This document shows positions 27,182 to 52,631 of a DNA stretch of 64,000 nt, piece after piece. The stretch covers positions 19,620,501-19,684,500 of the forward strand of contig CP142456.1 of the NCBI GenBank assembly GCA_038049695.1, read 5' to 3'. Each line of letters opens with the position of its first letter. Position 1 is the first letter of the stretch. The stretch comes from Cinnamomum chago (taxonomy: Eukaryota; Streptophyta; Magnoliopsida; Laurales; Lauraceae). Both the position numbers and the translations under genes were made by a program. Below the pieces are notes generated by a model. That model was not told where the DNA came from, made no database searches, and saw only the letters and a list, made by a program, of their open reading frames with translations.

Positions 27182-30100
27182 CTGCAAGTAGAATGGATGC
27201 AAATTAGGATCAACACCTCTCATATCAACATCATTTCCTCGCTGATTCTTGACAATACAGGGTAGGTAGTGTATTACTTTATAATGTAGACCTAGTTAGT
27301 TTTACAGATTTTATTGTGGATTACCTGCTTGAAGTCAACCCTCTACCTATCAATTCAAAAGCGAGAAAATCAAATGGAACAACAGAAGGCAAACAAGCCA
27401 TTGACATAATTCTCATATAGTGTTTGCTTTGGAGAATGGGCCAACTAAATAAATGGCCATCAAAGACAGGGTATCTCTAAGATAGTCAAATGAATGGATC
27501 GAAGCTGCCCAAGGGTCAACTAAGGGACCATCACACAATGGAAACCAAATTAAGGCACATCGTTAATCCATCCATACATGTTCCCAAATCAAGGACTAGC
27601 AAATCTGATCATATATTCATATCCAATCAGTGGTAATAAATGAATGAATAACACGCCACCAATACCTAATATGCAAAGTGCAGACTGATTGGCTTGAATT
27701 TCTAGCTAGTATACAAGCATAACAAACAAACCTGCTGATTTAGATCCAAAAACATTTCATTTACACCTTCTTCTGAGGATCCGTAAAGCCAAACCCAAAT
27801 GCCATTTTCACTGTGCCCTCAGAACAATATTCAAGAATGACATTAGAGTGTAAAAAATATGAATGGAAGTAATACACTTGGAAAGTTGAGGACCTTCAAC
27901 AGATCTGATTGGTGGTGGCGGAAAAGAAAAATAACAAATGCAGTGATTCTTACATCCTGTTTGGAGATGGTATAAGATGGACAGGTACATGAATGTCACT
28001 GAAAAAGCCAAGAGTCACTGCAGTGAAGGGTTAAACAACAGTGTGGGTTAATGTAATGATCAGTTAATAAGTACAGTACTGAATGTTTGAAATCAGTATG
28101 CATATCAGAACCACCCCACTACATTAATATTAATAAAGAAAATTTAGTCGAAGATAATGAAACAAATCAAGTCTGATAATCTATTTCTTTGAGTAAGATA
28201 AATTGATGCAGCCTGGACCTCATGATCAGTTAATAAGTACAGTACCGAATGTTTGAAATCAGTATGCATATCAGAACAACCCCACTTCATTAATATTAAT
28301 AAAGAAAATTTAGTCGAAGATAACGAAACAAATCAAGTCTGATAATCTATTTCTTTGAGTAAGAAAAATTGATGCAGCCTGGACCTCAACTCAAGACCTA
28401 CAAAAGGAGGCCTAAAAATAGTCCCACAGCCATCCCATCGGGCTCAATCCATAATGGGCCAGACCATCAGGCTAAACATATTGGGTCAGCCCATAGATGA
28501 CTGATCCGTTGGGTCTGACCCATGGACGGGCAGCCCACCAGCCTTACTATATCTACTTTCTAAAGTATGTAACCTTATAATAAAGTTTCCTAGATCACGA
28601 TATCTTAAATTTAAGATGATAACTGAATGAAATGTAATCGATAAAAGAGGAAAGAAAATCCCATCAAGAATAAAGAGATTGGCATGTGATCAATTTCATG
28701 AAAGGGAAAGAAAATCCTATCTGGATACCTAATTCGCAAGATTTTCATGCCCTCTTCTATAAATACCTTATAATCTCTCACTTCCAACTCACTGAAAGTC
28801 TCTCTTCTCCTCTTACTATTGTGAATGCAAAGTGTTTCCCCTTGAGGGAAGACTCCTTTAGGTTGCCAACAGTGATGACTCTAAAGGCCAGGTATCCATG
28901 AAGAATGAGTGAAGACTCCATCCATCAGTGGGTCCTATCATAAATACATAAAGTATATTCACATATGAATGGCAGCGAAAGGATTGATTGTGACTTCTAA
29001 TGTGGTGACACCAACATAAAGTTAAAGAGCATCTAGGGGCCACGAGGTTTCAGTGAAGCATGACGACAATCTTGATGTATTTGCAGGGCTGATATTACTC
29101 AAAGAATGTGCTTAAGGTGCAGTCTACCAGAAGGTAAGGGTTGCACGCCATCAAAATCATGTGTATTAACGAGCTTTAAGCTATTGTTGAAATTAGATAA
29201 GCCTACCAAGATTCAAACTATAAACCTCGAACATACAAATAAAGTCACATATCAATGAGCTACAGTTATATGTATTTTTCTTGTATCAAGTGCCTTTGTA
29301 TAAGGCCTTGGGTAGGTTCGACTAAGAAAGGTATGGGCGCCTTGGGAATTTTGCCATGGTGATTTGATGGGGACATCAGATCCAAGCCCATCAAGACATC
29401 CGAGGCGTAGGAAGAAAACAGCACATATAACTCCAATGTGGATGGATCAGCCTTTTATAGGCTTAATCCATCAAATCCATAGAGATCCACCTTTGGATCT
29501 GCCTCCAGAGGAAAATCAACCGCTAGATCTGGTGTTGGGGTTACTAAACTGTCCTCTTTGATGTGAGAAAGAGGGGACTTAATTGTAATTAGATGAATCT
29601 CAGGGGTGTCTTTTTTAGAGGAATTTTTTGTAATATTGAAAAATATAGCGAATATATATCTTAGCATGGTCGCCCAAGGAGGAGTAGCCAAGCCATATTC
29701 TTATTTCCCCTAAATATGCTTCTATTTCTTCCTTCTAAGTTTCTTCATATTTTAGGTTTTTCGGGTCTCTAGGGAGAAAACCCTAGATTACATTCAAGTT
29801 GGTATAAGAGCTGAGAATCTGGCAGGAGACTATCATATGAAAAGATCTGGTAAAGCAGATGTAGCAGTTTGCAACTGTTTGAGAAGATTTAACCCTAGAC
29901 GAACCGGTGCTTAGTCTCGTCTGGGTTATGAACACGACCAGCAGTCCCTAGCAGAACCTTTTCTCTCTTTGTTGCAGTCGGCAGTCTATATTGCAGTCGT
30001 CAGTCTTTGTTGCTGCTTTAGCAGAACCTTTTCTCTCTTTGTTGCAGTCGTCAGTCTATATTGCAGTCATCAGTCTTTGCTGCTGCTTCTTGGAGTGACT

Positions 30101-33100
30101 AAAGTGCCTGAAAACGTCTCTCATTAATTAAATCTGAATACCTGCACCAGTTTATAGCATTAAAACATAGCAACTATTTGGCTAGGACATTGGAGAGTAG
30201 TCCTAACAGAACCTAGGGGGCACTCAGTTTCATTGCTCTGACGAAGATTTAATGGAGATTACTACAAGGATTGGGCCTATTCTGCCAAAATGGCAATTGG
30301 AAGGGCCAAGAGGTTAGACAACATTACTGGAAGTATTAAGGAGCCTTCAAAAACAGATCCAAAATACTCAGATTGGGAGTCTGAGAACATGTTAGTCATT
30401 AATTGGATTCTTAATCCAATGACGAAGGATATAGCTGCAAGTTTCAAGTACTGTGACACAGCAAAGGAAGTGTGGCAATCCATCAAGGCTTCCTATGCTC
30501 AGAAAAAGAAGAGTGCTAGAATACTAGAATTAACAAAAGGAAATTGCAGCTTTTAAACAGGGAGACCTCTCTATTGGAAACTACTATTCCAAATTTAGAG
30601 CTCTGTGGCATGAATTAGAGGTGTATCGGCCACTTGAACCATGTTGTGCGAAAAAACAAGCAAATCAGTTAGAAGAGCAACACATATTTGAACTCTTGAG
30701 TGGGGTAAATCCAGAATATGAAACTCCGCGCACAGGTGACCAGTCAAGATCCATTACCACCAATTGGGACAGTATTTTCTCTCCTTCAAGGAGAGGAGAA
30801 TAGACGAAGAGTAATGTCAGTAAAAATTCCTTCAAATACATCTCTTGATCAGTTTGCCCTAGTTGGAAATGCTTCGATTGGTGGTGGTATAGTTTGCGGC
30901 CGACGTGCAGATGGGGGGTGCCCATATAGGAGGTCGTGGTAGACAATCCAATGTTGACCGGGATAAGCTCTATTGTACACACTGGGGGGAAAACTAGACA
31001 CTCGTGAAACATGCTGGGAACTTGTGGGTAAGCCTCGAGATTTTTGCAATGCTACTGCGACTGCATCTCCTGCAGAATCAACCAAATGGAATGCCGATAT
31101 TAATGATAAAGAAAGAGTAGTGGGCAAAGATGAGTCACAAAACCTGAAAGATGAATTGATGAGTCTACGCCAAAGGCTCCGAATATTAGGAGGGAATACA
31201 TCATCCTCAGCTGGTAGGGTCACTACTGATTTCCATAATTCTACTGCCTTGGCTTCTTCCTCATCTACTCCTACTTGGGTAATTGATTCAGGTGCAACAG
31301 ACCATGTGACAGGTATGTGGTCTATTTTTCACTCATATGTTCAGTCCTCTAATGGGAGAATTAGAATTGCTAATAGGACCTTTACATGAGTAGCTGGGGA
31401 AGGATCCATTAATGTTTTGCCTAACTTATCATTGGCATCTGTCCTCCATGTTCCACAATTTTCATTTAATCTTGTTTCCGTCAATTCTCTGACAAAAGCT
31501 CATAATTGTTCTGTTACCTTTTTCCCATCTCACTGTGTGTTTCAGGACCTGAGGACAGGTCAAAAGAATGGTGGTGGCCATAAGAGCAATGGTCTGTATA
31601 TCTTAGAGCCTATTCAAAGGGAGTCAAGAGTATTCCAGCCAACAATAGAATGGGAAAAGGCTATATTGTGGCATCGACGTCTTGGGCATGCACCTCCTCA
31701 AAGTCTTCGGAGTCTTTCTATTTTTTATATTGGAAACAGTGTTAGAGAATTAAATTGTGAGACTTGTCAATTTGCAAAGAAAATGTATAAACACTTATTC
31801 TGTCAGTACTCATAAGAAAAGTAGCATTTGTATTGACTTAATGCATTCTGATGTGTGGTGTGCTCCTCTTACATCTATGTATGGACATAAATATTTTGTG
31901 ACATTTATTGATGACGCTACCAGATGCATATGGGCATACCTCATGACGTCAAAAGATGAAGTATTACCCACTTTACAGATTTTTGTAAAATGGTTGAGAA
32001 CAAATTTGGCAGGAAAACAAAAGTACTAAGGTCCGACAATGGTGAAGAATATATGTCAAAGGAATTTAGGTCCTTTATGTCAGAAAGAGGAGTTGAATCT
32101 CAGATGTCTTGTGCATATACACCTGAGAAAAATGGTACAGCTGAACGTAAGAATAGACATCTCTTGGAAGTAGCGAGGTCCCTTATGATAGAGATTAATG
32201 TGCCTAAAGCCTGTTGGTCAGATGGTGTGTTGACTGCAGCATTTCTGATAAATAGGATGCCATCAAAAGTTTTGGGAGGAAAGAGTCCATTGCAAACTCT
32301 ACTCCCAGAAGTGCAACTGTTTCCGATTCTTCCAAAAGTATTTGAGCATACATATTTTGTTCACATCCCTAAGCAGCAATGTGATAAGTTGGATCCCATG
32401 AAAAATCCATAAGTGTATTTTTGTTACGTATCCAAGTACACAAAAAGGGTACAAGTGCTATTCTCCGGAAAAGAGGAAACTATTTGTTACCATGGATGTG
32501 TCATTTCAAGAAAGTATATCGTATTATCCTCCCAAGAATAAAGTGATCAGACAAGAAGCCATGAGGAAATTTCATATGAGGAGATTTCACCCCTTGCACA
32601 ATCATTATCTCCACCATCTTATCACACTACTAATGCCAAAGAAGAATTTGTTAGTTAAAAAGGTGGCCACGAAGTTCAAGACCCACCAAATGAAATTGAT
32701 GAAGAATAAAAGAATCAAACTCTAAGAAAAAATAATTCGACATAAGCTCCAGAAAAACCAATGCAGGTTTACTCTAGAAAAAAGAAGAAAACTAGACCAT
32801 TGCTTTCATCTGGCACATCACAGGCAAATGCCCTAGATCCAGGTACCGATCAAAACTCTCTATCAGGTGATCCAATGTCTGACCTTGATGTTGCTATTGC
32901 ATTACGTAAAGGCACTCGTTCATGTGTCACTACTCACTAGGCATCCCATTCAAAATTTTGTATCATATTATTATCTGTAACCTGATTTTCATGCTTTCAT
33001 TAGTAAGTTATCATCAGAACGCTTAGCCACACATGTCTGGAGCATTATCTCACTCTCGGTGGAAAGATGCCATGATTGATGAAATGCAGGCACTAGAAAA

Positions 33101-36100
33101 GAACGGTACATGGGAGTTACCAAAAGGAAAGCAAACAGTAGGCTGCAAATGGGAATTCACACTAAAACATAATCCAGATGGCTCAATTCAGAGATATAAG
33201 GCAAGACTTGTTGCAAAAGGATTTACTCAAGCATATGGGATTGACTACTTTGAGACTTTTTCTCCAGTGGCTAAGCTAAATTCTATCAGAGTAATACTGA
33301 CACTTGCAACAAACTTTGATTGGCCATTGTATCAGATGGATGTAAAGAAGGCGTTTCTTCATGGAGACTTAAAAGAAGTGTATAGGGATCCACCACCGAG
33401 TTTCATAGCAAAGGGACAGGAAGGCAAAGTATGTCGACTCAAGAAATCTCTATATGGGCTAAAGCAATCACCTCAGGCATGGTTTGATAGGTTCGGCAAG
33501 GCAGTCACCAGGTTTGGGTGCAAAAGATGTCATGCTGATCACACTATATTTGTAAAAAGTAAAAATTTGTCAGTGGTCATACTAGTTGTGTATGTCGATG
33601 ACATTGTAGTCACAGGAAATGATGGTGACGAGATTAACAGTTTGAAAGCCTACTTGCGAACCGAGTTTGAAATTGAGGATCTTGGGACTCCTAGATACTT
33701 TCTTGGAATTGAAGTTGCATGATGTAAAAATGGCATTGTCATTTCACAACGCAAGTATACCTTGGATCTTCTTGAAGAAACAGGAAAGTTAGGACCTAAG
33801 CCAGCTGATACTCCGATTTAACAGAATCATGGGCTTCATTCTCACAGTGGAGAACCACTTCATGACAAAAAGTCATATCAACGGATAGCGGGAAGGTTGA
33901 TTTATCTATCACCGGGCTAGATATTTCTTATGTTGTCAATTTAGTTAGTCAATTTAATAATTTATGCATGCTCCTAGGACAGGTCATTTGAATGCAGTCC
34001 ACAAAATTCTAAAATACCTAAAAGGATCACCCGGACAATGTATTTTATACAGATCACATGGGCACCTTAGAGCAGAAACATATACTGATGTTGATTGGGC
34101 TGGATCCAAGACAGACAAGAAATCAACTACAGGATATTGTACTGACTGGTGGGAATCCTGTTTCTTGGAAAAGTAAGCAGCAAGCAGTTAATGCAAAATC
34201 GAGTGCAGAAGCGGAGTATCAGGCTGTGGCTCATGGATGCTGTAAGCTGCTATTGCTGACGATTTTGTTAAGAGAAATGAGTTTCAAGCAAGGTGGGCCA
34301 AGGGTGGGGACTTGATTGTAATTAGATGAATCTCAAGGGTGGGTCTTTATAATTTAGAAATACTTATAGGAGTTTCTTGTTGTACTCCAAAGGAGGAGTA
34401 GCCAAGCCGTATTCTTATTTTCCCCTAAATATGTTTTATTTCTTCCTTTTAAGTTTCTTCGTATTTTAGGTTTTTCGGGTGTCTAGGGAGAAAATCCAAG
34501 ATTACATCCAAGTTTAACATTTTAAGTCTCTTGTGGGTTGTTGACGGCAGACCATTCTACAGGATGGTCCATAGGAGAAGTAATAATGATATTCTTAAAT
34601 AGCAAAGCTGGGGCGCAAAAAATATTAAAAGAAGACTCAAGTTATGAACAGGGGCCCGAGAAACATTTAAGGAATATTACAAACTTAAACCAAACATGGG
34701 AATACGTGAAAAGCCTTGCGCAAGGCTTGCGTACGACCCTTTTGGGGTTTTCTTTGTTTATTTTAGTTATTTTCTTTCCTTCTTTATTGTTGGATATTTT
34801 TAAGATGGGTTGATCTTAGTTGTTGGATGTTAGGGTTCATGTTTGCTCTTCTTTTAATGTTTCTCTCTGAGAGGTTCTTCTAGAGATCCTCTCTCTTATA
34901 AGTTTGTCTTCATCCTCACCCACAATGGGGAGTTTGGCATGAGGCCAAAGTTCTACACCATCATCTAAAGGTACTCCATCACTTGATCTCTCTCTCTCTT
35001 TTTGTTAAATCACAAATCAAATTAACCTTCAACTTCAGAAATCAGCTATCAAAGAGTAAAACCCAGCCATGGATTCATGCGCATGCATCCCAAGACATGT
35101 GCACGCATCCCAAGGCCTAAATCGCATCTTCCCATCACTTTTTCCCCTTTCCCTTGCTGGTCAATCCACTTCCCCATATTTCCACCACCTTTAGTAACCA
35201 TTATCCAATAGATCTAGGTACCCATTAGCCTCTCCACAATAGATCTAGCCCAAACCTCAAATCCAAACCTTAGATCAACCACAAATCCTTGCCAAATACC
35301 AGAATCAGATCTACATCAGCCACAAAACCCAACCTGAAAACACTTCAGATCTGGCTGACAACCACTATGGACCAACCTACATAGGTCGACCCCCATTGGA
35401 GCTCCAATTTTCCCGATTTTATGTCTGTATGCAATGTGGAAGCTCCCAATTTAATAAGTTTTGAGACTATAACAGTTGTGGAAATCAAGGATCAAAATAG
35501 CAGTTGCAAAGGGCGTAGTAGCCAGTGGCTAAAGCGCTACGGTGGGCGATAGGTAGCGGTTGTAGCGATATGTCGAGGTGTAGCAGTGTGAATTTTTTAA
35601 GTGGCCTAAAATTTTTGAATCTTGTGTTTTTTTTTTTTAATGATTTGGAATCATTCAAGGGAGAGACAACTGTAGGAAACGGCTATTGAGGAGAAATGGA
35701 AAAAAACAATGTTTTAAATTAAAATTGTTTGGCTCTACTAGTTTTTAGACCATAGCGCCACTATTTTCAAAATAGCGTAGTGGCCTCAACTACTAAGACC
35801 AATAATGCGGCCGCAATATACTATTTTGAACCATGGTGGGAATTCGTTTTCTGAATCTGAAATTAAATTTTCCCCACTCACATTCCGATTATATCAATTG
35901 CTAACCCTTTGAACCAAGGCCTTCGTGAAATCCTGAAAGGGCACTGCAAATCTACTTATGTCGGTGACTCCCTAGACAAGTTGGAAGTCCTAGCTTTCCA
36001 TCTGTCCTTTCCTCACTTCTTTGAGGTTCCGATTGCAGGACTATAACACGACCTTGGATCAACTAGTGGTTGCTTTAATTCAATTTACATATGATGGTGT

Positions 36101-45093: not shown

Positions 45094-45307
45094 CATGACT
45101 TAAATAGTGATTGCGGTGGGCGTAACGGCCAGTGGCCAAAATGCTACGTAGCAGGCGATGCGTAGCAGTATGCAGGGTTGTCAAAGGCGTGCCTAGGCGC
45201 AAGGTGCAGCGAAGCCCCACCAATGCGCCTCTAATACCTAGAAGCGAGGCGCATTTATTGAGGCGCAGTCTAGGTGTGCGCCTGGCGAAAGGTTCACGAA
45301 GCGTGAG

Positions 45308-48300
45308 CTTCTTCACAGTCAAGTGGTTGAATTAAAATTAGAAAAAAGAAAAACTTCTAAGGGGTTAAATGTAATCTGTCTTAAAATTTGAAAAAAAAAA
45401 TTGTTAAGGGGGCTAAATGTAATTTCTTTTTACTTTTTTTTAAAGGGCATCGAAAGCCCTAATCTTTGTTTCCATTGAAACAGAAAAAAAAAATGCTGCA
45501 GCAGGCATCAAACGAAGAAGAAGAGGAGAAGGAGGAGGAGAAGGAGAAGAGGAGGAGTGAAGGCAGTGGGGCCCTAATCTTTATTTCCAACAAAACCAAA
45601 AAAAAAAAAAGGCTGCAGCAGCATCAAACGAAGAAAATTTAGAAGAAGAAGAGTGAAGGCAGTGGGGCGAAGCATACCTGGTCTCCTCCAGTCATCTCCA
45701 CCGAAGCATACTCCCGAGCCCCAAGACCCATTCAAACAAACAGGAAAAAAAAATAGAGAAGAAGAGTGAAGGCAGTGGGGCGAAGCATACCTGGTCTTCA
45801 TTGACAAGAGAAGCAGCAGAAAATAGCAGCAACGCCTCCTTCTCAGGCCAGAAAATAGCAACAACACTGCAGATTGATCAAGATTGAGGGCCCATCTATT
45901 TTTTTCTACACATCAGGTACTTTTTTTTTCTCAGATGGTGCTTCTTCACAGTCAAGTGGTTGAATTAAAATTAGAAAAAAGAAAAACTTCTAAGGGGTTA
46001 AATGTAATCTGTCTTAAAATTTGAAAAAAAAAATTGTTAAGGGGGCTAAATGTAATTTCTTTTTACTTTTTTTTAAAGGGCATCGAAAGCCCTAATCTTT
46101 GTTTCCATTGAAACAGAAAAAAAAAATGCTGCAGCAGGCATCAAACGAAGAAGAAGAGGAGAAGGAGGAGGAGAAGGAGAAGAGGAGGAGTGAAGGCAGT
46201 GGGGCCCTAATCTTTATTTCCAACAAAACCAAAAAAAAAAAAAGGCTGCAGCAGCATCAAACGAAGAAAATTTAGAAGAAGAAGAGTGAAGGCAGTGGGG
46301 CGAAGCATACCTGGTCTCCTCCAGTCATCTCCACCGAAGCATACTCCCGAGCCCCAAGACCCATTCAAACAAACAGGAAAAAAAAAGAGAGAAGAAGAGT
46401 GAAGGCAGTGGGGCGAAGCATACCTGGTCTTCATTGACAAGAGAAGCAGCAGAAAATAGCAGCAACGCCTCCTTCTCAGGCCAGAAAATAGCAACAACAC
46501 TGCAGATTGATCAAGATTGAGGGCCCATCTATTTTTTTCTACACATCAGGTACTTTTTTTTTCTCAGATGGTGCTTCTTCACAGTCAAGTGGTTGAATTA
46601 AAATTAGAAAAAAGAAAAACTTCTAAGGGGTTAAATGTAATCTGTCTTAAAATTTGAAAAAAAAAATTGTTAAGGGGGCTAAATGTAATTTCTTTTTACT
46701 TTTTTTTAAAGGGCATCGAAAGCCCTAATCTTTGTTTCCATTGAAACAGAAAAAAAAAATGCTGCAGCAGGCATCAAACGAAGAAGAAGAGGAGAAGGAG
46801 GAGGAGAAGGAGAAGAGGAGGAGTGAAGGCAGTGGGGCCCTAATCTTTATTTCCAACAAAACCAAAAAAAAAAAAAGGCTGCAGCAGCATCAAACGAAGA
46901 AAATTTAGAAGAAGAAGAGTGAAGGCAGTGGGGCGAAGCATACCTGGTCTCCTCCAGTCATCTCCACCGAAGCATACTCCCGAGCCCCAAGACCCATTCA
47001 AACAAACAGGAAAAAAAAAGGGAGAAGAAGAGTGAAGGCAGTGGGGCGAAGCATACCTGGTCTTCATTGACAAGAGAAGCAGCAGAAAATAGCAGCAACG
47101 CCTCCTTCTCAGGCCAGAAAATAGCAACAGCACTGCAGATTGATCAAGATTGAGGGCCCATCTATTTTTTTCTACACATCAGGTACTTTTTTTTTCTCAG
47201 ATGGTGCTTCTTCACAGTCAAGTGGTTGAATTAAAATTAGAAAAAAGAAAAACTTCTAAGGGGTTAAATGTAATCTGTCTTAAAATTTGAAAAAAAAATT
47301 TGTTAAGGGGGCTAAATGTAATTTCTTTTTACTTTTTTTTAAAGGGCATCGAAAGCCCTAATCTTTGTTTCCATTGAAACAGGAAAAAAAAATGCTGCAG
47401 CAAGCATCAAACGAAGAAGAAGAGGAGAAGGAGAAGAGGAGGAGTGAAGGCAGTGGGGCCCTAATCTTTATTTCCAACAAAACCAAAAAAAAAAAAAGGC
47501 TGCAGCAGCATCAAACGAAGAAAATTTAGAAGAAGAAGAGTGAAGGCAGTGGGGCGAAGCATACCTGGTCTCCTCCAGTCATCTCCACCGAAGCATACTC
47601 CCGAGCCCCAAGACCCATTCAAACAAACAGGAAAAAAAAAGGGAGAAGAAGAGTGAAGGCAGTGGGGCGAAGCATACCTGGTCTTCATTGACAAGAGAAG
47701 CAGCAGAAAATAGCAGCAACGCCTCCTTCTCAAGCCAGAAAATAGCAACAGCACTGCAGATTGATCAAGATTGAGGGCCCATCTATTTTTTTCTACACAT
47801 CAGGTACTTTTTTTTTCTCAGATGGTGCTTCTTCACAGTCAAGTGGTTGAATTAAAATTAGAAAAAAGAAAAACTTCTAAGGGGTTAAATGTAATCTGTC
47901 TTAAAATTTGAAAAAAAAATTTGTTAAGGGGGCTAAATGTAATTTCTTTTTACTTTTTTTTAAAGGGCATCGAAAGCCCTAATCTTTGTTTCCATTGAAA
48001 CAGAAAAAAAAAATGTTGCAGCAGGCATCAAACGAAGAAGAAGAGGAGAAGGAGGAGGAGAAGGAGAAGAGGAGTGAAGGCAGTGGGGCCCTAATCTTTA
48101 TTTCCAACAAAACCAAAAAAAAAAAAAGGCTGCAGCAGAATCAAACGAAGAAAATTTAGAAGAAGAAGAGTGAAGGCAGTGGGGCGAAGCATACCTGGTC
48201 TCCTCCAGTCATCTCCACCGAAGCATACTCCCGAGCCCCAAGACCCATTCAAACAAACAGGAAAAAAAAAGGGAGAAGAAGAGTGAAGGCAGTGGGGCGA

Positions 48301-48457
48301 AGCATACCTGGTCTTCATTGACAAGAGAAGCAGCAGAAAATAGCAGCAACGCCTCCTTCTCAGGCCAGAAAATAGCAACAGCACTGCAGATTGATCAAGA
48401 TTGAGGGCCCATCTATTTTTTTCTACACATCAGGTACTTTTTTTTTCTCAGATGGTG
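45308..48457. repeat. Five-copy tandem array, 621-633 bp unit
   Basis: Units start at 45308, 45941, 46574, 47207 and 47828, each with cttcttcacagtcaagtgg (the last ends at gatggtgct, 48457). Copies differ by only a few substitutions, A-run length changes and small indels. Unit 4 lacks 12 bp of a gaggag-type stretch. Within each unit gagtgaaggcagtgggg occurs three times, and gccctaatcttt followed by a ctgcagcag block occurs twice. The unit also looks like a leader region (aaggggttaaatgtaat, ggctaaatgtaat). The 97-codon minus-strand frame in every unit is low-complexity and copied with the array. Confidence 0.95.
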
Positions 48458-48460
48458 CTG

Positions 48461-48484
48461 CCCCCCCCCCCCGCCCCCCCCCCC
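48461..48484. repeat. Poly-C tract with one G
   Basis: Twelve C, one G and eleven C follow directly after the last tandem unit, where the regular sequence breaks off. Confidence 0.9.
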
Positions 48485-48894
48485 ACCACACTTTTTTCTT
48501 TTTTTTTTTTACTGCTGCAGGACATCTTTTTGTTGTTTTTAACCATTTGTGGCATTCAAGGTTTGAGGAGAAACCTTTGAATTGAATTGGGTTTTAATGC
48601 TTCTTTGGCCAACTTCCATTTGATGCGAGAAAAATTGCATCTTTTCCCTTTTTTAGTCACTATCGTATAACCATATGGCTTCTTTCTTGTGAGGGCACTT
48701 TTGTGAATGGAATTTGCAATGAAGGTGCTTTTTTTGTTGTTGTATGCATACACAACAAAATTGAATGCTGTTGTCATATTTTTTTTGTTCCTTTTTTTAA
48801 TCAAATGATGTCTGTTGGGCTGGAATTTTATTACACATTGCTCATTGTTGTTTTTAATTTTAATTTAATTGCTTTGAAATTGCAGTAATAAAAA

Positions 48895-51545
48895 AGACAC
48901 AGCATGGCGGTATGCACACTTGGAAAACCCCCAGAATATAAATAGGTTCAAAGCAACAACAACTGAAAAAACTAAATTAAAAACAACAATGGCAAAAATT
49001 CAAATGGAGGTGTCTATCGGGTGAAGCAATATCTTACTGCATGCTTGTCCAAAATGTCCACCTGAAGTTAGAGAAGAGATTAAAGAATACGTGGCAAAAA
49101 AAGAGAGAGAAAAAGAACAAATGAATATGTTGCCTCATTTTGATGAATTGGCTAATGCGTTTGAAGAGGATGAAGATGATGATGATGTAGAGATCAATGA
49201 ACGGGGTAAAAGACCCTTGGCTCATCATAGTCAAGTTTCTAGTGCTCACGGAAGTATTACTATTTCCACTGCGTCCAAACCTAAAAGGCCAAAGAAAAAG
49301 GTCCTATTGATGTATTCTTCAATCCCAATCCGGACGTTGTTGTGCAAAATCGAAAAGCCTAGGGCAAACAAACAAGAATTGATGATAATGACCAATATAG
49401 AAAAGAATTAAGAGAGCGGGCATGTTTAAGATTTGCAAGGTGGATGTATGATGCTGGGATTCCTTTTAATGCAGTTAATTACTATAGTTTTGGACCAATG
49501 ATTGAAGCTACTGGACAATATGGTTCTGGTATGAAACCACCAACTTGCCATGAGGTGCGAGTTCCTCTTCTCAAAAAAGAGATAGAGCATACTAATAATT
49601 TGATGAAGGGTCACCGGGAGGATTCGGTAAAGTATGAATGTTCTATAACAGTTGATGGGTGGACCAACAAGAAAGGGAGGACATTGCTTAATTTTTTAGT
49701 AAATTGTCCCAAAGGAACCATGTATGTGGAGTCAATTGACGCTTCTAGCTACTCAAAGGATGCAGAAAAAAATGTTTCAATTAATTGACAAGTTTGTGGA
49801 GCATATTGCAGAAGCTAATGCAGTCCAGGTTGTCACAGACAATGCTGCAACTAATGTGTTGGCGGGTAAGAATTAGTGGTTATTGGAAAAAAAAGTTCTT
49901 TATTTAGGAGTATTAAAAGAATTAGTTATCTAAAACTCTCATTTTTCTCTTTCTTTGTTTTGGTTCTAACAGGAAAGTTTTTGGAGGCAAAGTATGCACA
50001 CTTGTATTGGTCACCATGTGCTGCCCACTGTTTGGACTTGATGTTGGAAGACATTTTTAAGATACCAAGCCTCAAGAGAACATTTGAAAGGGGTAGTGCA
50101 GTACATGGGTTCATTAATAACCGCCCAACTTTGCTAAATATGATGAGGCGGTTAAGGTTTACACAAATGAAAGATTTGATCAAGCCTGCAAAAACCCAAT
50201 TTGCAACTGCCTTTCTCACTTTAGCAAGGATTCATCAACAAAAAAACAATTTGAGGAAGATGTTCACTTCAGAGGAATGGACAACAAGCAAATGGGCAAA
50301 GGAGCAACTGGGTAAAAGGGCTGCACAAATTATGTTAATGCCTACATTTTGGAACAGTGTTGTCTATGTCCTTAAGGTCTCCGGTCCTCGTCTCGTGTAC
50401 TTAGATTGGTTGATGGTGAGAAAAAGCATCCCATGGGATACATTTATGAAGCCATGGATCAGGCTAAAGAAATCATTTCAAATGCTTTTGGGGGAAAAGA
50501 AGAAAGATATAATAATATCTTTGAAATCATTGACAGAAAGTGGGATGTTCAATTGCATCGTCCTTTGCATGCAGCTGGATATTTTTTGAACCCAGGGTTC
50601 TTTTATTTGAATCCCAATGTTGAGCAAGATAATAAAGTTATGACATGGTTGTATAATTGCATATCAAAGCTGGTCCCAATTATTGATGTACAAGATAAGA
50701 TCGGTAAAGAGTTGTTTGTTTATACGAAAGCTGATAATTTATTAGGGTTGCCTATGGCGATCAGGCAAACGGCGACAAGGGCACCGGGTAAACTATTTTA
50801 TCCCATAAGTATATTCCATTATATTACACAATTAATTTTTTTAATTTATCCCATAAATTTAAGCTAATTACCTATAATTAATAGCTGATTGGAGGGCGGC
50901 ATATGGTTCCAAAACCCTAGATTTGCAAAAATTTGCGATAAAAGTTCTTAGCCGAACGTGTAGTTCATCTAGTTATGAGCAGAATTGGAGTGTATTTGAG
51001 CATGTGAGTAATTATCTCAAGTCTAGTGAATTTAAAATATTTTTATTCCATAGATATAAATTTTAATATCTTTTTAATTGTTGTGGATTCATAGCAAAAA
51101 AAGAAATAAGTTGGATAAAAAACGTCTCAATGATTTGGTCTTTTTTAAGTACGACATAGCATTGAAACGTCGATATGATATGCATAACATACTTGATCTC
51201 ATTTCTTCGAAGAATATTGATGAAAGCAATGAGTGGTTGCTTGGGAGGATGGATAGAGAATTGGATAAAGATGATGAGCTAGTGTTTGATGATGGTATTT
51301 TGACATGGGGTGATATTGCTACAGCTTCTGGAGTTGGAGAAAGTAGTCAAAGAACTAGAGCAACATCAACTTCAAGGGAAAAAGCAACACCAAGAGATTC
51401 TAAATCATCAAATGCTCTTCAATTCGTAGATGAGGAAGAGGCAGGTTCAGAGGAGCCAGACGAGGAAGACGTGGATGGATATAAATCCAATGATGAAGAA
51501 GAGGATTATGACTTACTTGGTGTAGATGTTAAGGATGATTGTTAG
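48895..51545 (+). pseudogene. hAT transposase (BED finger, DUF659, dimerisation domain), decayed
   Basis: Exon-like blocks are 48895-49865, 49973-50787, 50885-51003 and 51087-51545 (TAG). The first has a BED-like start (DTAWRYAHLENPQNINRF) in which the CxxC pair is no longer visible, then CPPEVREEIKEYVAKK and an acidic stretch. DUF659 and the RNase H-like core follow: ECSITVDGWTNKKG (first Asp), VVTDNAATNV (second Asp), and WSPCAAHCLDLMLEDIFKIP. The C-terminal part has DWRAAYGSKTLDLQ and YEQNWSVFEH, the hAT dimerisation signature, then an acidic tail ending LGVDVKDDC. Frame changes lie near 49300 and 49770 (an A run), and a TAG near 49360. The last intron has GG instead of AG at 51085-51086. 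Confidence 0.85.
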
Positions 51546-52631
51546 GTCCTCCTTAGGACCATTTGTGTTGTTGCTTTCACTATGAAGTTGTATTGGTGTT
51601 CGATGGTTTTTGGTACTTTCGTTGAATGTTTAGCATTTAGAGTGATGGATGCTTTTATGACTTTTAGAATTCTTCTAATATTCCTTGCCCTTTTTGTTAT
51701 AATTCGTGAATTATTTTCACTTTGCCCATGTTGAATTTTGAATTATCTGTCTATACCAAAATATCTATTTTTTATCTACAATGTGCGCCCTGCTTCAATG
51801 AAGCCCGCACCTCGCCTCACGCCTAGGCCCTAGGAGACCTTAGCGCCTTGATGCGCCTTTGGCTTCTAAAAACACTGCAATGTGAATAAAAAAAGTTTTT
51901 AAAATTTTTTGAAAAAATATTCAAAAAGTCCAAAATATTGGAAAATATTAGAATTCGATGCTTTTTTCCCATAATAACAAAGATAGGGGGTGTAGTGGTC
52001 CCTTCTGTGCATGGAAGTTCTGTATCGCTAAATGATTATAAAAAAAAAATAGTGTTTACCTAATTTTTCCCTTGTTTTCATGTTGGTTTTCTTTACTAAG
52101 TTAGAAACTATTATGAATTTCTAAATTCATAATTCAAATAAGCAATTTAGTACAACTGTACATAACAAAGGGTATATAAATTATAAATAATGCTTAAATA
52201 AAGTTTAAAATTCAAACCAAATAACAAATTAACTTTCATCAAAATAAATAATGTATTTTTTTATTTTTTCTTGCGAGTAGAGAAAAGAATACCTCTACCA
52301 AACGGGGTCTCTACCAGGTAATACCTAGAGAAGAGCCCTTGAGAGGAACTCTTTGTATCAACTTCAGTTCGGCAAGATCTTGTGCTTTTTTGTGTTCTTT
52401 AAAGCATAGGAGGGTAGAAGAGATGCATAGAAATGTTGTTTGGAGAGAGGACGAAAAGAAATAAGTCTTATTATGCATTTTAAAAAAATTTAAATGTAGC
52501 AGTTAGTCTCACACCGTAGCGGACTGTAGCGGGTGTAGCAACCGCTATGGTTGAGAGTGGAGCAAAATACAATTTAGCGAAGCGATATTGGCCGCCACGC
52601 CCAATATACCAGCCACCTATTTTGATCCATG

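Follow-up and report, generated by a model that had tools for sequence, protein, structure and literature searches.

The window, the 64,000-nucleotide stretch of Cinnamomum chago DNA analyzed here, contains an old, broken hAT transposon (element 45173-51876) whose 5' leader holds an array of five nearly identical head-to-tail units. The explanation that best accounts for the evidence as a whole, and one considered highly probable, is that the transposon decayed long ago, that its leader was duplicated late through a join at a microhomology, and that the duplication then grew to five units. The array is a clear and well-dated case of a known route of repeat birth, and not a new type of element. 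Coordinates of the element, its array and its target-site duplication are collected in Table 1.

Table 1. Features of the hAT element and its leader array (positions in the window).
Feature	Position	Strand	Remarks
Left copy of the target-site duplication, GCAGTATG	45165..45172	.	One transition from GCAGTGTG
5' terminal repeat and G+C-rich subterminal block	45173..45305	+	Outside the array; start CAGGGTTGTCAAAGGCG like the 5' ends of 8 relatives
Unit U1	45309..45941	+	633 bp, unit alignment
Unit U2	45942..46574	+	633 bp; 1 substitution relative to U1
Unit U3	46575..47207	+	633 bp, unit alignment
Unit U4	47208..47828	+	621 bp; 12-bp deletion
Unit U5	47829..48458	+	630 bp; 3-bp deletion
Single-copy remainder of the leader	48459..48883	+	Begins with a poly-C tract; ends at an acceptor-like TGCAG
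Transposase exon A, broken	48884..49865 (end approximate)	+	L025 frame by alignment; part of DUF659
Transposase exon B, broken	49973..50787 (ends approximate)	+	Domain search and L025 frame
Transposase exon C	50890..51003	+	Part of the hAT dimerisation region; PF05699, 38 aa
Transposase exon D, including the stop codon	51096..51545	+	L025 frame by alignment
3' untranslated region and 3' terminal block	51546..51876	+	Ends CACT(G); 3' ends of 14 relatives used for comparison
Right copy of the target-site duplication, GCAATGTG	51877..51884	.	One transition from GCAGTGTG; first G common to the CACTG end

Alignment of the units placed the array at 45309-48458, or at about 45306-48461 once the microhomology is counted, and confirmed the original prediction of five near-identical tandem units of 621-633 bp, whose coordinates were correct or off by a few bases at most. 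The ten pairs of units differ by 1-7 substitutions, with identities of 98.87-99.84% (gap columns excluded), as expected from the claim that the units differ by only a few bases. In a self-comparison of the window, the array was the longest and most similar of all repeats of at least 150 bp. It was absent from the listing of a tandem-repeat program, because the longest period accepted by that program is 500 bp. The nested internal repeats that had been described in each unit were also found by alignment, as two pairs: unit positions 148-211 and 263-327, with 86% identity, and positions 336-376 and 449-489, identical at 41 of 41 bases.

The host element was assigned to the hAT superfamily by its 8-bp target duplication, the presence of DUF659 and of a C-terminal dimerisation region, and its short terminal inverted repeats. 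DUF659 (PF04937), which we take to be a mark of hAT transposases, was detected in two of the five open fragments (E values of 3.1e-21 and 1.1e-11), and the dimerisation domain PF05699 gave a weak match (E value of 0.0026) to a 38-aa piece, under the curated cut-off. The terminal repeats are imperfect, reading CAGGGTTGTCAAAGGCG on the left and, in reverse, CAGTGTTTTTAGAAGCCAAAGGCG on the right in a comparison made by eye. Alignment with the L025 frame revealed one stop in the transposase together with five length differences that shift the frame, and exon A has lost its start-codon region, a stretch present in the relative L017. The element is thus dead, as had been proposed from the interrupted transposase, and nearly all copies compared in this alignment are likewise broken. 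Just after the last unit, at 48460-48486, there is a poly-C tract (some 25 C with one G) that does not occur at that place in L017, L018, and L021.

The two copies of the target duplication, GCAGTATG and GCAATGTG, are alike at six of eight positions. When the joined flanks were aligned with eight paralogous copies of the host repeat at the insertion point, the empty site read GCAGTGTG in two of them (L037 and L044), and each of the remaining six departed from this form at one base or a few; the length of the stretch immediately to the left of the target site is also variable among host-repeat copies. With such variation in both the site and this length across the eight empty sites, the target duplication may have been read wrongly. 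An 8-bp duplication bounding the element at 45173-51876, in which the last G of CACTG is assigned to the right copy, is therefore probable but less firm than the other features. The right flank, from 51881 onward, is a dispersed repeat with at least 39 other matches among the best 40 of 842 candidates, and these matches stop by about 52640. The relative L018 carries AGTGAAAG on both sides, a perfect 8-bp target duplication.

A search with the transposase part of the element (48884-51877) returned many long relatives with about 83-88% identity among the best 40 of 141 candidates. No closer sister appeared when the transposase part of L017 was used as the query, as no long piece exceeded 89% among the best 40 of 1214 candidates. 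Leaders resembling the unit were found at nine fetched loci (L017-L024 and L036), and a second tandem unit was present in none of the nine. None of the 11 fetched copies of the transposase group (L025-L035) has a leader matching the unit; ten of these were compared with each other in their leaders. Among the nine unit-like loci, both ends of the unit are present only in L017, L018, and L021, about the first 360-390 bases in L019 and L020, and only some 120-250 bases in L022, L023, L024, and L036. Three of these loci (L018, L022, and L024) are deletion derivatives, with a leader and a 3' end and little or no transposase, and L021 has a fold-back-like arrangement (L021:3473-5708), which combines a leader in one direction with a transposase piece and another 5' end that are both inverted.

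The right breakpoint, GATGGTGCTGCTCCTGCCC, is intact in all three relatives that reach it (L017, L018, and L021), and the left motif, GAGCTTCTT, is intact in six of eight aligned relatives (L017-L020, L023, and L024), with a gap in L021 and a different sequence in L022; the three relatives holding both unit ends thus have the right breakpoint intact in three cases and the left in two. In the array, the junction GATGGTGCTTCTTCACAG corresponds to these breakpoints fused at the 3-bp microhomology GCT, shared by GAGCTTCT on the left and GTGCTGCT on the right. Because the leaders of the relatives match the unit at the same place and the breakpoints can be located, the unit is identified, by sequence comparison, as the leader of the element, from the inner edge of the G+C-rich terminal block to just past CTACACATCAGGTA. 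The idea that DNA lying upstream of the transposase had been multiplied was thus upheld. Its description as regulatory or first-exon DNA stands as regards leader origin and is weak as regards the first exon, for which the one indication is the splice-donor-like motif CTACACATCAGGTA, present in the units and conserved in L017, L018, and L021; the end of the unit at this motif might be a putative first-exon end. Capture of the first exon of a host gene may be another source of the unit but was not favored, as four loci (L045-L048) that have some 60-100 bp in common with the unit look, by eye, like members of one other repeated family.

The present units are much younger than the decay of their host. 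The deepest split among them, {U1,U2,U3} versus {U4,U5}, amounts to 3-7 substitutions in six comparisons (mean 5.2 over about 620 bp), that is, about 0.4% per lineage. Substitutions private to the window copy, counted where all other copies agree and with the partial copy L033 excluded, reach at least 3.4-5.0% in the transposase; they are distributed 22:31:25 over the three codon positions (about 773 sites each), with a further 30 in 596 sites outside the mapped exons. This even spread (chi-square P = 0.45) gives no sign of purifying selection and fits neutral decay of the window copy. The distant copy L032, with a longer branch, has a distribution of 36:28:60 (P = 0.001). The other copies likewise have no third-position excess, with small counts, as expected if each copy decays after its insertion. 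In a tree of 13 copies the terminal branch of the window copy is 0.047. If the deepest unit split were as old as the neutral private branch itself, 42-62 substitutions would be expected, and the Poisson probability of seven or fewer is about 4e-11 or less. The units therefore coalesce at about 8-12% of the private branch, in about the last tenth of the neutral decay of the element. The original prediction, which contrasted nearly uniform units with an interrupted transposase, is supported by these values, and divergence among the units is far below that of the transposase. As the private counts are lower bounds, the age contrast is conservative. Some private substitutions may be older than the insertion, which would weaken the contrast, but few such changes are suspected because of the even codon spread. 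The coalescence gives the age of the present units; the very first duplication may be older, with the array refreshed by unequal exchange.

All nine substitution columns among the units fit one tree, ((U1,U2),U3),(U4,U5), without conflict, and each clade consists of neighboring units, in spatial order. Such a tree is what stepwise duplication leaves behind, the units at the 5' end being the newest; unequal crossing-over and replication slippage would both produce it. According to the preferred explanation, the hAT element would have inserted long ago into a dispersed repeat, producing an 8-bp target duplication, and its subsequent decay would have been free of selection. Long after the insertion, within roughly the final tenth of the decay time, 633 bp of leader would have been duplicated in tandem by a microhomology-mediated event, with the initial join at the two GCT-sharing points. 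A small number of further rounds, by unequal crossing-over or replication slippage, could then have taken the dimer to five units, with the youngest copies at the 5' end.

The choice offered earlier, between an array expanded after the death of the element and one kept uniform by unequal exchange, can be partly settled with this tree: recent expansion fits unaided, and turnover by unequal exchange is not needed. An older array homogenized by repeated unequal exchange or gene conversion might also have produced units with 98.9-99.8% identity inside an old element, but no shared variants scattered over non-adjacent units were seen and a diverged edge unit is absent at both ends, so this origin is judged unlikely.

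A different beginning is conceivable for the first duplication only, and it is compatible with later growth by exchange. Transposase supplied in trans might have excised the copy, with template switching during abortive repair of the gap duplicating the subterminal leader. The transposase was probably around when the array formed, because the terminal branches of two relatives, 0.0018 for L025 and 0.0047 for L027, indicate a family mobile in the right period. Excision in trans with faulty repair of the resulting gap is therefore a real rival for this step. The start of the array about 133 bp from the 5' end of the element and the existence of the deletion derivatives L018, L022, and L024 agree with it. 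Excerpts of a study of Medicago PIF/Harbinger elements report abortive gap repair as a model that fits them, with tandem repeats adding rearrangements (PMC2213677). However, the nested order of U1, U2, and U3 takes several steps, and a sequence trace specific to this route is absent; abortive gap repair is thus considered improbable as the source of the duplication.

Smaller or older leader duplications recur across the family. A segment of about 110 bp within the unit is doubled in the window copy and in L018-L021, and not in L017. Among leaders of the other type, that of L029 contains a tandem duplication of its own (offset of 387 bp, 84% identity), the leader of L049 has a 387-bp dimer, and L050 has tandem leader units of about 169-181 bp with 86% identity (L050:333-1070); in L030 and L033, two of the 11 fetched copies of this type, no self-repeat of 60 bp or more was found in the leader. 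When half of the duplicated pair was used as the query, the best 40 of 125 candidates gave 40 loci, of which 22 matched at least 100 query bases twice and 3 had two near-full copies; both counts lean high, because A/T tracts abound in the query and part of these repeats may go back to one old shared duplication and not to separate events. The 5' UTR monomers of mouse L1 are tandem units ahead of the coding region and serve as active promoters of a living retrotransposon; the array resembles them in its tandem units before a coding region and differs in that the window element is broken. That the leader is inherently prone to duplication, with copies independently and repeatedly multiplying their promoter and first-exon region as a counterpart of the L1 monomers, is very doubtful. 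If true, the five-unit array would be the youngest and largest case here, and the splice donor of every unit could join transcripts to the coding part.

Assemblies can mis-size arrays, and five is the copy number in the assembly, but private and shared variants in spatial order are not expected of one falsely repeated unit, so an assembly artefact is most improbable. Selection for more transposase, through a promoter array in which each unit provides a start and a splice donor, might be suspected from the conserved CTACACATCAGGTA in the units and from the recurrence of leader duplication in the other leader type, but is hardly credible because the transposase was already in neutral decay when the present units arose, and other copies with this array were not found (28 of 28 candidates for the unit, best 40 of 93 for the L017 leader); a function of the array is unlikely.

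The proposal that the array is a nascent satellite fared poorly. The genome searched comprises 1.06 Gb in 14 contigs, with the window on contig C6. A 693-bp query (U1 and the start of U2), for which all 28 candidates were scored, identified no second array of the unit, and none was found with the L017 leader among the best 40 of 93 candidates, where further loci match the start of the leader only. Off-locus matches to the 693-bp query that cover at least 200 bases have 72-81% identity, and shorter ones reach 93% over about 40-60 bases, together with one of 86% over 121 bases; as the search scores the best candidates only and skips simple repeats, fragments of the unit may be missed. The array has the head-to-tail, near-identical organization of a satellite, in five units; as to high copy number or several loci free of the parent element, it occupies one locus, inside the element. 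As no second array of the unit emerged from the genome searches, it is a private array, not yet a satellite.

The array shows an early step in the birth of a tandem repeat, and the states preceding and following this step can be compared within one genome. What makes it valuable is how complete the record is: relatives with a single copy, the two breakpoints and their microhomology, the order in which the units arose, and the relative dates of decay and growth. Models of satellite origin can be tested with the help of such complete cases; the process itself is already well described. The hobo element of Drosophila is also a hAT element. Excerpts of two reviews state that tandem repeats arise from almost any part of an element and expand by unequal exchange (PMC12628747, PMC9659126). 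According to one of these excerpts, hobo has been expanded in tandem (McGurk and Barbash, as told in PMC12628747), which makes it another DNA transposon with this fate, but it occurs in 16 tandem copies discussed together with dimers from repeated insertion, whereas here an internal segment is present five times. For miDNA4 of Xenopus, the same excerpt describes a DNA transposon containing an array whose copy number varies, and microhomologies are invoked, as here; that element is a Tc1/mariner MITE, thought to have captured a pre-existing repeat (PMC12628747). PisTR-A, from the Ogre element of pea, resembles the array in being a tandem multiplication of untranslated element sequence, but derives from the 3' UTR of an LTR retrotransposon and has grown into a satellite (PMC9659126, excerpt). 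A near parallel in plants is VaccSat7 of Vaccinium, with 3-5 tandem units for which an origin in the terminal part of Harbinger-type elements, which are DNA transposons, has been proposed, and with relatives that have no tandem arrangement (PMC7290377). That system differs in belonging to non-autonomous Harbinger elements with 3-bp target duplications, in having its similarity near the 3' end, and in occurring in whole families of two species, whereas the array is in one copy (PMC7290377). The titles and opening abstract lines returned by the literature searches mentioned no hAT leader array of such kind, a result valid for those searches alone.

Elsewhere, a scan of the whole window with Rfam at the gathering score gave no match. 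Fragments of a retrotransposon polyprotein, with GAG pre-integrase, integrase (below cut-off), and reverse transcriptase domains, occur at 30973-33719 and are presumably of the Copia type. A 166-bp unit is present twice in tandem at 28056-28388, with 97% identity.
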